Shown: piece by piece, positions 5,032 through 16,243 of the stretch
How the letters are laid out: every line of letters starts with the position of its first letter
How positions within the stretch are numbered: the first letter of the stretch is position 1
IMG/VR virus record: IMGVR_UViG_3300023223_001452
Location: 1 to 21,360 of that record
Strand: one strand, 5' to 3'
DNA: 21,360 nt
Origin: a virus
Translations under genes and position numbers: made by a program
Notes under the pieces: generated by a model
What the model was told of the DNA's origin: nothing
Database searches by the model: none
The model's input: the letters and a program-made list of their open reading frames with translations, nothing else

Positions 5032-8000
5032 CAGGCTACCTCATCAGCTGTGATTGTTAATTGCGATACTTCAATATTATAGGACGGGTCGTTGGTTGTA
5101 AACTCGGCCTTAAACTCAAACGCCATGGCATTGAATTCTGCCGAGTCCAGACGCTGGTATTCAGAGAAAGTGGGCGAGCCACCGGGATCATCGTTGGTGT
5201 GGCGGACAAAAACTTTCACATCGGCATCGGCGGCTTCCGTGCCATCAAAATCGATCCAATCGTCTATATTATTCAAACGGCTGTCAATATCATCCAACAC
5301 ATTGACAATCAGAGCCTCGATTAATACGGTGAGGCGCACCCTGACTACAGAGCCAAAGTCAAAGGCCCCGTCAAAAATATAGGTGCCGTTAGGGGCTACG
5401 CCGCCTTCTGAATCGAAATCAGCAACAGCGTCAAAATCCGGCCAAGCATCTATATTTAACGTGCCATCAAGACTGAGGCTACCAGCGTCTACAACCAGGT
5501 TGGTTTTATCACCAGCGAATACGGGATGTTCAGAAAGGATGTTGACGTTGGTATATTCAAGAGCCGTTGCTTGAGTCGTTTCAAAAGACACCACGGGGCC
5601 AGAGATGTTTGACGCATCGATAGCTCGGGCTAAATAAGTTCCGGGTTTCAATGGCAAAACGACTACTGTTTCTGTCCCAGGAATTGCATCCCCGATTGAC
5701 ACCGACTCGCTCCAGGAGGCACCGCCAAATAAGCTACTATGGCGGAACACAATCCTCCCGCCTTCACGGACATCCAGGTCCGGCGACAGGTCCCAGCGAA
5801 TGATAGCCAATCCGCCAATGGTACTGATGGTCAGGTTTTGCAAAGCTAAGGGCGGTGCCAGTAAACCTAGCACTTCCAAATTCTGCTCGACAAAATCAAG
5901 GCTTTTTACTGCCAAAGTATTGATAGAGAAAACACGAAAAACGTAAACGCCCGGAGTTAAGTCTTCCAACAGGAAATTAATATCCCTTGTTGTGCCTTTG
6001 ACTTCAAACTCGGGCTCGGTCAGAAGTTTAAACTGTACTTCGTATTCAAACACAAACGCATCCAAAGAAGCCGTCCAGGTGAGCCTTACCCTGGCCTTAA
6101 CACCGCCTCCCTGGCGGGCAATATAAAGTTCTTCAATGGCAATCAACCCTGTTGGTGGCAATACCGTAAACGGATCGGGGAGATTAGTGTTTGGAGCAAT
6201 ATCAATCCTCGTTTCCTCTCCTGAATTCCAATCGTAAACCTCCGGGGCTGTTTCCCGGCAAAACAGATCAATCCCTAACTGTGGAGCACCGCCACCTTGT
6301 CTTATTGCGAACTTCCAGTCTTCAATGCTGAACAGTTTCTCAACCCAGCCAAATCGCGTATTATTGATTTTTATAGTATCGCCAGCCTGGAACCTGAAGA
6401 CTTTTAATTTACAAGAGAGCACAACACTTATTTGCTGGCGCACTTTTTCCAGTTGAATTTTAGCCAGCCTTTGGGCCATGGAGGATGAGGTGGTAAAGGG
6501 AAGATCGATATCCTGCCAGATTCTTTCGCCGCCGTCTTCGTCAAGATAAGTCGCATTGGTAACCGCAGGGAAATCGGTGGGCACAAAATCTTTATCCACG
6601 CTGGAAAACTGGCCTTTAACTCCATTAAATAAATCACGTTTTGAAATCAAGGTTGAAACCTGTATAGGCCCATCCAGGTCGCCCTCATCCAAGGCATCGA
6701 GCGTAGGAGGCTCAAAGGCAATATAGGGGTTCCAGAATCCGCTTTGGTATACTAAAGACCCATTTACAGCACTTAATAATTGCCCGATGATCCCTTCCGG
6801 TGTCTGGTTCGTATCAAAAGTACCATTACAGGTATAACGAGGCTCGGTAGTGCGGTGCAGCGTGTGGGTGCCAGTCCCGCCGTCAGTTATATCAATAGCA
6901 ATCCCAGCCAGAGCATTGGCATAGCTTGAGGCAATTAGCCCTACTTTGTCTGTTTTTCTGATATAAAAATGCGCTGTAGGTACAGGTGTTATCCATTTCT
7001 CGACTAAATATTGCTCTACCTGAATTCGATTTGCTGAAGATAGTTCAGTGTCGTACGCAATAACCTCCGCAATATCCCCCTTCCAATACCTAGCAAGAAA
7101 ATCTTGTGAAATTTGCGGTATAAAAGTGGGCGCGCCAGGAGATACTGCGCTTATTATAAATGGCGTATTGACCGCTATTGCAGGGGGTACGGATACCACA
7201 CCATTAATACGCATTTCACCTGAAGGGTCGGTAAAATCAGCACTATTCGTGACCCCATTTCCCCTGAGCTCAAGGTTTGTGCTGTTCATTCTTAGGTTTT
7301 CATCATCTGTTCCAGCCTTATTAAAAAGACCGGCTAAAGCAGGGAAACCAGATTCTATTTTAGCCACGATAAATATCATTTTAATTGTCGTGGAAGAGGA
7401 TGCCGCCATAAAATGATTACTGCCATCAAAATTAATGACATTCCTGCCGTTTATAGTATTGATACCGGTCTTTGGTCGAGCCACGCCCGATTGTGTAAAA
7501 TCAATATTCCCACTACCCTTGTCATTCCAGTCAGAAAGGTCGTTGCCCGATGCGATAAGCGTGCTCGCATCATCGGCATCCTGCCAGAAACTCAGCCCAG
7601 AAAAATCTGTGGGTGAAAATGGCACCAGCCCACCAGGGAGGGTGCCATCGGAGGACACTTCAACGCCATCACCTGTTTCTAACCCTTGAATGCGACTGGA
7701 CAAGGTGATCTCATTACTGGACGCATCAGCAGTAAAGGTTTCGCGGGATTGCCTGACCAGTCTATGAATCCCTGACCCTGCATCTGTTATATCGATAGTA
7801 ATCCCTTGGGCTGCGTTTTCAAAAGACACGGCCAGTTTAAAATCTGTGTCTGTTACAGGAATTAAAAAGTACTCGGTGGATGGAGCTAGCCCGCCTGGCA
7901 GGGTGCCGTCTGTGGATAGGAGAACCAGGTCAGAAACTTTAAACCCTGCGGCAGCACTGGAAAGGGTTATCGTATCAATTGCAACATCGGCCGTGAACTC

Positions 8001-13668: not shown

Positions 13669-14106
13669 TTAGGCTAATACGGGTTTACCGGTAATTTTGA
13701 TGGTGAGACTGGCGGTGATTTTGTCTTCAACAGGATCGTTCATGGTGAACTCGGTAACGAATCCTGAAAAATCCCATGTTGTCGACCCCGTATCGGGAAA
13801 GATGATCTTCCAGTTTCTCACCTTGGTTTCCGCGTCATCAAAATCCTGCAGAATGCCTGTGTCCTTTCCATGTGTCGCATTGTCAAACAAGTAGTTGATC
13901 TCAAAAGAAATCTCACCAGCATCTCGAAGCCCTGGTATGAACTCCATATACTTATCTGGTGAATCCATATTGGTAACTTCCACTGCATTTGTGCTAAGAG
14001 ACGGCCCATTAATAGATTGCACCTCGGCTACGGTGGTAAAAACTTCAGGGCCTTCTCCATCGCCCAACTGCAATTGAGTGCCTATGCCAAGAATCGAATC
14101 GCTCAT
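13669..14106 (-). CDS. Major tail protein
   Basis: The 145-residue, beta-rich protein starts MSDSILGIGTQLQLGDGEGPEVF and has EVTNMDSPDKYMEFIPGLRDAGEISFEINY, the pattern of small siphovirus tail tube subunits in which a tested region is followed by an EFxPGLxDxGExxFE loop. No Ig-like C-terminal addition is present, so it is a minimal tube protein. It polymerises into the hollow tail. The gene lies directly before the chaperone pair, with 10 bases between. Confidence 0.8.
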   Translation of the reverse strand: MSDSILGIGTQLQLGDGEGPEVFTTVAEVQSINGPSLSTNAVEVTNMDSPDKYMEFIPGLRDAGEISFEINYLFDNATHGKDTGILQDFDDAETKVRNWKIIFPDTGSTTWDFSGFVTEFTMNDPVEDKITASLTIKITGKPVLA

Positions 14107-14115
14107 TTTGTACTC

Positions 14116-14529
14116 CTAATTTTCCTGGTGGTGAATAATAAAATCCTGTGTGTAACGAAATAAATCTGTTTGCTCGGTAAAGTTATTGAGATTAGTGTCT
14201 GACTCTAAAAATATTCCATTTATGAACATATCCCCGACCTGGCCACGAAAGACTTCCAGGCTGCGGCGTATCGCTTCAGACAGGTTCTTGACCTCTTCAG
14301 GATTTTTGTCTGAATAGGATTCAAACTGAAACCGGGCCACAACCAGTCCTGTTTTCCCGTCCATCGAATAAGTGCGGTCGGCACTGATACGGCTGAAATG
14401 AACGGCCGGGAACTCAATATTTTGTGGCAAGATCATCGGGAATATCCTGGCATCATTCCCTGACCCTACAATTGCGGTAACATCTGGATCGGCTAAGAGT
14501 TTCTGATAAATCGCATCCTCGATCGTCAT
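14116..14529 (-). CDS. DUF3168-type tail terminator
   Basis: This 137-residue protein has the N-terminal MTIEDAIYQKLLADPDVTAIVG and the IFPMILPQNIEFPAVHFSRISADRTYSMDGKTGL segment typical of the DUF3168 tail completion family. This family caps the tail tube at its head-proximal end. The C-terminus (FIHHQEN-like, residues 130-137) is short. Its ATG overlaps the upstream gene by 4 bases (ATGA). Gene order, between gp10-like and major tail proteins, matches the HK97 cluster. Confidence 0.75.
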   Translation of the reverse strand: MTIEDAIYQKLLADPDVTAIVGSGNDARIFPMILPQNIEFPAVHFSRISADRTYSMDGKTGLVVARFQFESYSDKNPEEVKNLSEAIRRSLEVFRGQVGDMFINGIFLESDTNLNNFTEQTDLFRYTQDFIIHHQEN

Positions 14530-14987
14530 TTTCTCAACCGGCTCCTTAAGATCAACTTGACCACTTCTTTTCTTAGCCGTTTTTTCAATTCTTGTCTCAA
14601 AATAAATTCCTGCTCGCGTTTTTTAGTGTCCAGGGCACGAGTAAAAAATCGTAAGGCGGGCATAGCCCCCGTAGACTTGCCATCCTTTGTGAAACGAGGA
14701 CCCGTACCAAACTCAACCAGCACAGCGTGATTCCCCATAGGCTTTTTAAATCCGACCAGGACAGCGACCTTTGAGATGGTTTTGAACTTACGATTGACAA
14801 CCGTTACACTGCGAGCCATATTGCCAGTATGTTTATGACCTTTGAGATTAGATTTGATCTGCCTGGTAATAGGTTTTGCGGATGCCCTTATAGCACCCCG
14901 AGTCGCCCGTCTTACAGGTTGTTCTGCAAGATTCTTTAGAAACCCAGAGAGTTCTTTAAATCCTTCCAATTTTAATTTCACACTCAT
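14526..14987 (-). CDS. HK97 gp10-like tail completion protein
   Basis: The 153-residue basic protein has LEGFKELSGFLKNLAEQPVRRATRGAIRASAKP at the start, then HTGNMARSV, and VLVEFGTGPRF, which match the HK97 gp10-like family. This family acts at the head-tail junction. The C-terminus is very rich in Lys and Arg. The gene shares one base with the head closure stop and 4 bases with the DUF3168 gene, so the three are translationally coupled. Confidence 0.8.
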   Translation of the reverse strand: MSVKLKLEGFKELSGFLKNLAEQPVRRATRGAIRASAKPITRQIKSNLKGHKHTGNMARSVTVVNRKFKTISKVAVLVGFKKPMGNHAVLVEFGTGPRFTKDGKSTGAMPALRFFTRALDTKKREQEFILRQELKKRLRKEVVKLILRSRLRK

Positions 14988-15307
14988 TATTCAACCCTCG
15001 CAATCGCAGTGATTTCCAGGCCTTCGCGCCGACCTAGTTCCTTGGGTTTGCCCTGTATGTCGTAAATATTGCCTGCATAGACAATGCGCATTGCCGACTT
15101 GATGCCAGAGCGAAAATGAATGCGAAACACCGTACGGACAAACGCCTGGGTTTGCTCTGAAATAAAAGCCTCATTACCGGATATCTCTCTAACCGATGCC
15201 CAGAGCTTGGCAAAGCGTACCCATTTTTTTTCCTCTCCTCCCTGGGTGCCACGGGTTGTCAGTTCCTGCTCAATGACAATGACGCGGTCCATTTCACCGG
15301 CTCTCAT
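14987..15307 (-). CDS. Head closure / head-tail joining protein
   Basis: The 106-residue protein begins MRAGEMDRVIVIEQELTTRGTQGGEEKKW and contains a FAKLWASVREISGNEAF segment, the signature of the Phage_H_T_join (SPP1 gp16-like) family. These proteins form a ring below the connector that holds DNA in the head until the tail is attached. AGGAAG and AAGGA lie just before the ATG. Unlike most operon neighbours it is separated from the upstream minus-strand gene by 429 bases that hold the plus-strand zinc-ribbon unit. Confidence 0.8.
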   Translation of the reverse strand: MRAGEMDRVIVIEQELTTRGTQGGEEKKWVRFAKLWASVREISGNEAFISEQTQAFVRTVFRIHFRSGIKSAMRIVYAGNIYDIQGKPKELGRREGLEITAIARVE

Positions 15308-15338
15308 TTCCTTGCTTCCTTTTTTGTAATAAGTTGCG

Positions 15339-15347
15339 TGCTATACT
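15339..15347 (+). promoter_or_regulatory. Extended -10 promoter for the zinc-ribbon gene
   Basis: TGCTATACT (15339-15347) is an extended -10 element (TGn followed by TATACT, 5 of 6 to consensus). No matching -35 is found at the usual spacing, which is acceptable for extended -10 promoters. Transcription would begin near 15354, at the foot of the first leader hairpin, giving a leader of about 76 nt. It runs against the late operon. Confidence 0.5.
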
Positions 15348-15351
15348 AAGT

Positions 15352-15421
15352 GCCTGGAAGAAAGCTAGTACTTCCTCCCAGGCTTCTCCTTTAGGAGTTG
15401 CAAACCAGAACTCCAAAGGAG
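15352..15421 (+). promoter_or_regulatory. Structured mRNA leader hiding the Shine-Dalgarno
   Basis: Two consecutive stems can be drawn. The first pairs GCCTGG (15352-15357) with CCAGGC (15378-15383), with AAG/CTT extending inside. The second pairs CCTTT+GGAGTT (15388-15399, one bulged A at 15393) with AACTCCAAAGG (15409-15419), 11 base pairs around a 9-base loop. The second stem covers AAGG of the AAGGAG ribosome site (15416-15421). A smaller alternative, CTCC/GGAG around AAA (15411-15421), also covers it. Translation control by melting or by a bound factor is inferred. Confidence 0.55.
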
Positions 15422-15429
15422 AAAATAAC

Positions 15430-15648
15430 GTGACATCTCACTCTGATGATCAAACCCTAGACATTCCCTGCCCTAACTGTGGCAAGAAAATCACGGAAAG
15501 CGTCCGTAGGTTGAAGCAAAGCCCTCAACTCACCTGTGTTTGCGGCACTGTTATCGACATTAATGCTGATAAATTCCAGCGGGGTCTCTCTGAAGCGGAC
15601 AAAGAACTCCAAGACTTCTTTCGAGACTTTGGGCAACGCCTTAAGTAA
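15430..15648 (+). CDS. Zinc-ribbon small protein (Com-like in size)
   Basis: The 72-residue protein starts with GTG at 15430, placed 8 bases after AAGGAG. It has CPNCGKK near the start, a helix (ESVRRLKQSP), TCVCGTVIDINADKF, and a charged C-terminal helix (SEADKELQDFFRDFGQRLK). The first pair is CxxC and the second CxC, one residue shorter than in most related phage zinc ribbons I know, which have CPxCG in both. Related small zinc-ribbon proteins occur in prophage structural regions. Function is unknown; phage Mu Com shows that such proteins can regulate translation by binding mRNA. It lies opposite to all neighbours. Confidence 0.7.
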   Translation: MTSHSDDQTLDIPCPNCGKKITESVRRLKQSPQLTCVCGTVIDINADKFQRGLSEADKELQDFFRDFGQRLK

Positions 15649-15714
15649 GGACGACAACTCCTTGATTAAATGGCTTACCTGATCTTCAAATATGATTTCC
15701 ACTGTTTGTTTCAT
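15457..15714 (-). CDS. Possible small gene antisense to the zinc ribbon
   Basis: An 85-codon frame starts at an ATG with a well-placed GAGGA, continuing the minus-strand operon, and overlaps 15430-15648 by most of its length. Its first 23 codons (beginning MKQTVEIIFEDQ) lie outside the overlap and look protein-like; the rest simply mirrors the zinc-ribbon gene. Either a real small protein begins here and later acquired the overlapping gene, or the start is accidental. The zinc-ribbon frame has clear family features, so this one is the less likely. Confidence 0.25.
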   Translation of the reverse strand: MKQTVEIIFEDQVSHLIKELSSLLKALPKVSKEVLEFFVRFRETPLEFISINVDNSAANTGELRALLQPTDAFRDFLATVRAGNV

Positions 15715-15736
15715 TTGAATTTCCTCACTATCCTTA

Positions 15737-16243
15737 TTATTTAACACCGATTAAAATAATGTCGTAATCAACAGACGTGCCACCTGCCAGGTTGGTAATG
15801 GTCAGAAGATCAGCCGTTCCAGGCGTAACAGCCATCCCCGTTCCGTCAGGGTTAATGATCACCAGCGTCCCATCGGGTCGTAGTGTCACACCATCACTGG
15901 CTGCAATAAATGGCGATACCCAGCCATTGGGCGCTTTCGCCACCACTGAAATATTATTAGTATTTTCTTTGGCAGCGTGCACGATAAAGGCTTTGATTGT
16001 GGTGAAATTGACGGTTTGACCGAAGGCGTTAATGAGCACCCCGTTTAAATCGATGTCCTCATTTGCAGAAGCTGAAAGCGTGCGGGTATCGGAAAACACC
16101 TCATCCGCCTGATTCGCTCCGTTTCCATCGGCAATCTTGTAGGTATACTCTTTAGAGATTTCGGATTTAGTTTTGGCCAAATCCGTGAGGACGGATTCCA
16201 GTGTTGAATTTATTTTTAATGAAATAATGGATGATTGCGACAT
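15737..16243 (-). CDS. Conserved beta-rich phage structural protein
   Basis: The 168-residue protein has INSTLESVLTDLAKTKSEISKEYTYKIADGNGANQADEVFSDTRTLSAS, then FTTIKAFIVHAAKENTNNISVVAK and ends LAGGTSVDYDIILIG. I recognise this layout in uncharacterised proteins encoded among siphovirus head genes, probably a decoration or minor virion component. A GGAAAG ribosome site precedes the ATG. It is the last head-side gene before the plus-strand zinc-ribbon unit. Its molecular role is not known. Confidence 0.6.
   Translation of the reverse strand: MSQSSIISLKINSTLESVLTDLAKTKSEISKEYTYKIADGNGANQADEVFSDTRTLSASANEDIDLNGVLINAFGQTVNFTTIKAFIVHAAKENTNNISVVAKAPNGWVSPFIAASDGVTLRPDGTLVIINPDGTGMAVTPGTADLLTITNLAGGTSVDYDIILIGVK

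Follow-up and report, generated by a model that had tools for sequence, protein, structure and literature searches.

Within the minus-strand head-tail operon of the phage DNA analysed here, a small zinc-ribbon gene (R) and a second small gene on the opposite strand (S) appear to be encoded by the same DNA. Judging from sequence comparison, we regard them with a probability of about 0.8 as a nested pair of antisense genes that is conserved and codes for protein in both frames. The computations show selection on both frames across 32 distant loci, and the pair sits on a transferable cassette that is missing from a close relative with 92-93% identical flanking proteins. The features of the locus are given below, with positions counted in the window, i. 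e. the whole stretch of 21,360 nucleotides that was analysed.

14987-15307, minus strand: head-closure gene, one flank of the R/S unit
15308..15728, no strand assigned: cassette, replacing a 48-aa gene of the near relative L012
15339-15347, plus strand: extended -10 promoter-like site for R, TGCTATACT, a consensus match only
15354-15381, plus strand: first leader stem, predicted by folding from 15354
15384-15423, plus strand: predicted second stem of the leader, 15 pairs interrupted by one bulge, including the R ribosome site
15416-15421, plus strand: R ribosome site AAGGAG, read from the sequence, 8 nt upstream of the start
15430-15648, plus strand: R, zinc-ribbon gene of 72 aa with a GTG start, CPNC...CVC, product VTSHSDDQTLDIPCPNCGKKITESVRRLKQSPQLTCVCGTVIDINADKFQRGLSEADKELQDFFRDFGQRLK
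15457-15714, minus strand: S, 85 aa from an ATG start, in codon register with R, product MKQTVEIIFEDQVSHLIKELSSLLKALPKVSKEVLEFFVRFRETPLEFISINVDNSAANTGELRALLQPTDAFRDFLATVRAGNV
15721-15726, minus strand: S ribosome site GAGGAA, read from the sequence
15737-16243, minus strand: 168-aa late gene (PHROG 22694), upstream neighbour of the R/S unit

The original prediction described a GTG-started zinc-ribbon gene in a 430-base gap of the opposing operon. The ribbon gene was found as described, with its GTG at 15430, the CPNC...CVC ligands and the stop at 15648. The gap, however, is filled by the minus-strand frame of S, an antisense gene which had been overlooked. The ATG of S lies 22 nt beyond the stop of the upstream 168-aa late gene, its product matches phrog_20296, and by its sequence context S would be an ordinary member of the late operon.

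To assess selection, 32 non-redundant phage or prophage loci were compared whose ribbons are less than 70% identical. The antisense frame in register with R is open through the ribbon and for at least 45 nt past its stop in all 32 loci, whereas the remaining two antisense frames are open to the same extent in 12 and 11. An in-frame ATG is found 36-90 nt out in 24 of the 32 loci for the S frame, as opposed to 0 and 2 for the other antisense frames. Since the codons of S face those of R exactly, any TTA, CTA or TCA codon in R would put a stop into S. None of these codons was observed in the overlapped part of R, where 39.3 were expected. With same-length windows of neighbouring genes as the reference, the chance of all 32 loci being open is about 10^-16, a value that treats the loci as independent and, as they are partly related, overstates their independence; for the window alone, the chance of an open antisense frame is 10%.

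The N-terminus of S extends beyond the overlap. Over 54 nt of this part no stop occurs in the 32 loci, compared with 8-42 in the other frames, and the pairwise similarity of the encoded residues reaches a z-score of 8.8 against residue shuffles, compared with -0.4 to 4.1 in the other frames. The recurring pattern is a short strand, often with Asp at its end, followed by a helix. Substitutions in the ribbon are also spread over the codon as expected for dual coding: they fall on positions 1, 2 and 3 in proportions of 35/13/52% at less than 10% divergence and 32/12/56% at 10-20% divergence, against 12/5/83% and 14/5/82% in controls, for which each low-divergence bin contained only 6 gene pairs. 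R and S share most of their length on opposite strands, each has a start and a ribosome site, and codon use, N-terminus, openness and codon positions all bear signs of selection on the two frames.

Protein searches for relatives of R led to viral contigs, to plasmids and to a small number of chromosomes; broad genome searches recovered ribbons in about 1% of genomes or fewer and added few new loci. The closest ribbon found, that of locus L100, is 49% identical overall and 56% over 60 aa. The family conserves C-P-x-C...C-x(1-2)-C and a C-terminal helical segment, and the model of R shows a zinc ribbon with C-terminal helices (pLDDT 69). The CxC pair, which had been called unusual, is common: relatives from enterobacteria have it as a rule (CRCG), and further members of the family have it as well. 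Among known profiles YnfU comes nearest; each of the 16 ribbons tested reaches E <= 0.01 against it (best 3.4e-10). Still, R of the window scores 23.4-24.3 bits against NF038384, under the curated cut-off of 36, and so falls outside YnfU as curated. The YnfU profile had no match in the E. coli control, and the examined stretch of K-12 Qin contained no entry for ynfU. Among the Pfam matches of R up to E 1 the Com zinc-ribbon family is absent; for two of the 16 ribbons there is a weak match to a PHROG annotated as translational regulator.

R is maintained in its own right. Distant chromosomal ribbons, for example those of Neobacillus (L070 and L074), have no open antisense frame opposite them. 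The cysteines of R are retained while both TGC and TGT are used, a swap that alternates Ala and Thr in S, and R varies less than S when the same pairs are compared. Probably R is a nucleic-acid-binding regulator or an accessory protein of the moron type that is expressed in the lysogen.

AlphaFold2, run on S together with 23 relatives, gave a model of moderate confidence (mean pLDDT 78, pTM 0.55) with the predicted topology strand-helix-helix-strand-helix-strand-helix. According to this model S would be a small alpha/beta protein; a fold search against the PDB and a viral library found no resemblance. A tblastn search of plasmids with S of the window gave no match, and no S was found without R. 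In plasmid records from Rhizobium, Microbulbifer and E. coli that contain relatives of the ribbon, only the S-type antisense frame is annotated. E. coli prophages carry a variation in which a ClpX C4-type zinc-finger domain precedes S in frame (L008, 4019-4384, minus strand), and the E. coli records label this fusion product 'ClpX C4-type zinc finger protein'.

The flanks shared by the window and L012 run to AAATAATAAGGATA on one side and to the head-closure ATG on the other. Between them L012 has an unrelated 48-aa gene and lacks the cassette, so that the cassette is an insert between conserved phage genes. In L013 tail genes occupy the corresponding site. The tail-terminator and major-tail genes differ in place between the two phages: in L013 (1498-2369) they lie between the 168-aa and head-closure genes, in the window (13669-14529) downstream of head closure. 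This local change of gene order falls at the cassette site. Elsewhere in the window, at 384-1818 on the plus strand, there are genes whose products look by eye like a repressor of the helix-turn-helix type, a lipoprotein and a beta-barrel protein of the outer membrane; such a set points to a temperate phage that carries accessory genes.

Phages and prophages of alpha-, beta- and gamma-proteobacteria carry the pair, in varying settings. The pair lies inside lysis operons in rhizobial prophages, between cII-like and cro-like genes in L002, L024, L033 and L100, next to an S24 repressor in E. coli and between terminase-like and portal-like genes in L040 (outside annotated records, neighbours were identified from their translations, without profile searches). 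Wherever the neighbours are readable, S is co-directional with the operon and R opposes it. In outline this bears out the expectation that R forms a compact independent unit whose RNA is antisense to the operon: the unit is absent in L012, has a promoter-like site of its own, and opposes the operon in the relatives as it does here. The promoter itself was claimed on the basis of the extended -10 motif. The motif is present, but it occurs four times on the plus strand of the window and is therefore weak evidence by itself; a sigma-70 scan requiring a -35 listed nothing at 15339-15347.

A possible interpretation, which we put forward tentatively and at less than even odds, is that R and S are a widespread transferable antisense pair of two folded proteins that serves temperate phages as an either/or switch, with R made when the operon is off and S when it is on. 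One phage cassette would code for the two proteins codon against codon, and R, running against the surrounding operon with its own promoter-like site, leader and ribosome site, would be transcribed mainly while the operon is silent, i. e. in the lysogen where the pair lies in a late or lysis operon. S would be made when the operon is active. The two mRNAs would be complementary over the entire shared stretch and transcription would converge, so that the expression of each gene would hinder that of the other and the output would be one or the other. R itself would act on nucleic acid. A toxin-antitoxin reading was set aside, since co-expression is unlikely for a pair of complementary mRNAs.

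The main rival to the dual-coding pair is that only R is functional and that the antisense frame and its start are kept for the sake of ribosome coverage of the operon mRNA across the inserted cassette, which would block Rho termination. The constant orientation of S along the operon would fit such anti-polarity translation, as would the fact that openness of the frame and the start codon give the strongest signals. The conserved N-terminal sequence of S outside the overlap and the fusion of S to a ClpX-type zinc finger in E. coli speak against it; the moderately confident fold of S and codon changes suggesting selection on its residues as well point the same way, and we consider this explanation unlikely. 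The converse, in which S alone is genuine and the zinc ribbon is no more than its mirror-image shadow frame, takes up the annotation of S alone in the databases and the recognised risk of shadow families such as DUF1602, which is a family of antisense open reading frames. It is hardly credible here, given the resemblance of every ribbon tested to the independent YnfU profile, the distant ribbons without an antisense frame, the cysteines kept through TGC/TGT changes, the lower rate of change in R and its own ribosome site.

The original prediction offered a third explanation, in which R is a Com-like RNA-binding protein and governs how its own mRNA is translated, by way of a leader stem that covers the ribosome site. 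Com of phage Mu is a small phage zinc-ribbon protein. Both leader stems proposed for the window are predicted by folding, and the second indeed has one bulge and pairs the ribosome site AAGGAG, albeit with 15 pairs instead of the 11 bp described. Folded from 15354, the leader reaches -27 kcal/mol (z-score -3.1), and only one of 200 shuffles is equally stable; in the window this hairpin probably damps translation of R. An Rfam scan of the window returned nothing. The comparison of leaders does not support masking as a property of the whole family, however. When 37 ribbon leaders were compared with 133 control starts, neither the accessibility of the ribosome site (0.41 versus 0.44, p 0.22) nor the fold z-score (-0.44 versus -0.18, p 0.30) differed, and family-wide masking was rejected. 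Individually strong leaders are those of the window, L024, L068 and L088, while in L100, whose ribbon is the closest, the ribosome site lies outside the nearby stem.

Masking is nevertheless plausible, from sequence covariation, in a subgroup of six leaders (L019, L024, L033, L068, L088, L092), where a stem of 9 pairs ends at the start codon and 5 of the 9 pairs have changed on both sides. The covariation of 0.311 was reached by one of 500 shuffles and by none of the slid versions of the stem (at most 0.133), for a small sample and a structure derived from those same sequences. The -10 of these leaders likely falls between the two arms of the stem, in which case the 5' arm may be missing from native transcripts, and only read-through RNA would be silenced by the stem. 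As the arms are near-palindromic, they may alternatively be DNA operators. Considering in addition the absence of a match to the Com Pfam family, against which the weak match of two ribbons to a translational regulator has to be set, self-control of R through its leader seems improbable.

Embedded antisense genes are known in bacteria, namely ano, aatS (PMC4892627) and a set from EHEC O157:H7 (PMC5960689, PMC4892627, PMC9927249; reviewed in PMC7457138). As in these cases, a small reading frame is antisense to another over all or nearly all of its length and each has a start and a ribosome site. Established embedded antisense genes are, however, reported to be taxonomically restricted as a tendency (PMC9927249), whereas the R/S pair spans three proteobacterial classes, is codon-registered and constrained in both frames, and travels on a transferable cassette. 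Fully overlapping opposite-strand pairs this widespread are rarely documented, and a literature search, to which subscription journals were largely inaccessible, found no paper on the R/S pair. With the YnfU family (NCBIfam NF038384, Pfam PF23499) R shares the zinc-ribbon core but not the C-terminal helical segment, which is extra in R, and its score stays below the curated cut-off. R is a small phage zinc-ribbon protein like Mu Com, from which it differs in lacking a profile match and a family-wide leader stem; the Com gene arrangement was not seen here. The cassette resembles prophage morons in being an insert with its own promoter-like site that opposes the operon and is missing in a close relative. 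Unlike in morons, a second, antisense frame belongs to the host operon, and the search for plus-strand terminators found none behind R.

Extended antisense overlaps between genes of bacteria or of phages are a matter of dispute, and the recorded examples are described as coming mostly from narrow groups. Because it is conserved over three proteobacterial classes with measurable selection on both frames, the R/S pair offers a clean test case for asking if the two strands of a single DNA segment can each specify a folded protein. A gap in annotation comes to light as well, since the examined records list S and lose R. Through the E. coli prophage representative, the pair is open to experiment.

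Two further observations concern the upstream regions. The leaders of L019, L033, L087, L088, L100, L049 and L060 have the motif (T)TCTCAC(AC) in common, close to where transcription is inferred to start. It is flanked by a short inverted repeat with locus-specific arms (TCTTGG/CCAAGA, TGCTGG/CCAGCA, TGGCGT/ACGCCA, TTGGC/GCCAA), and was counted in 6 of 33 leaders, slightly over the chance maximum. The same element occurs upstream of ymfI in the e14 prophage of E. coli K-12 (L067, 1640-1721); ymfI was rejected as a relative of the ribbon, as it has the leader motif in common but its product is not a zinc ribbon. Finally, a Microbulbifer phage-plasmid (L006) contains two similar promoter regions, at 5900-6020 and 6340-6430, of the form CACACCACT..CAGGTG..TTTACCGGTA, each in front of a different small gene; the ribbon is one of these genes.
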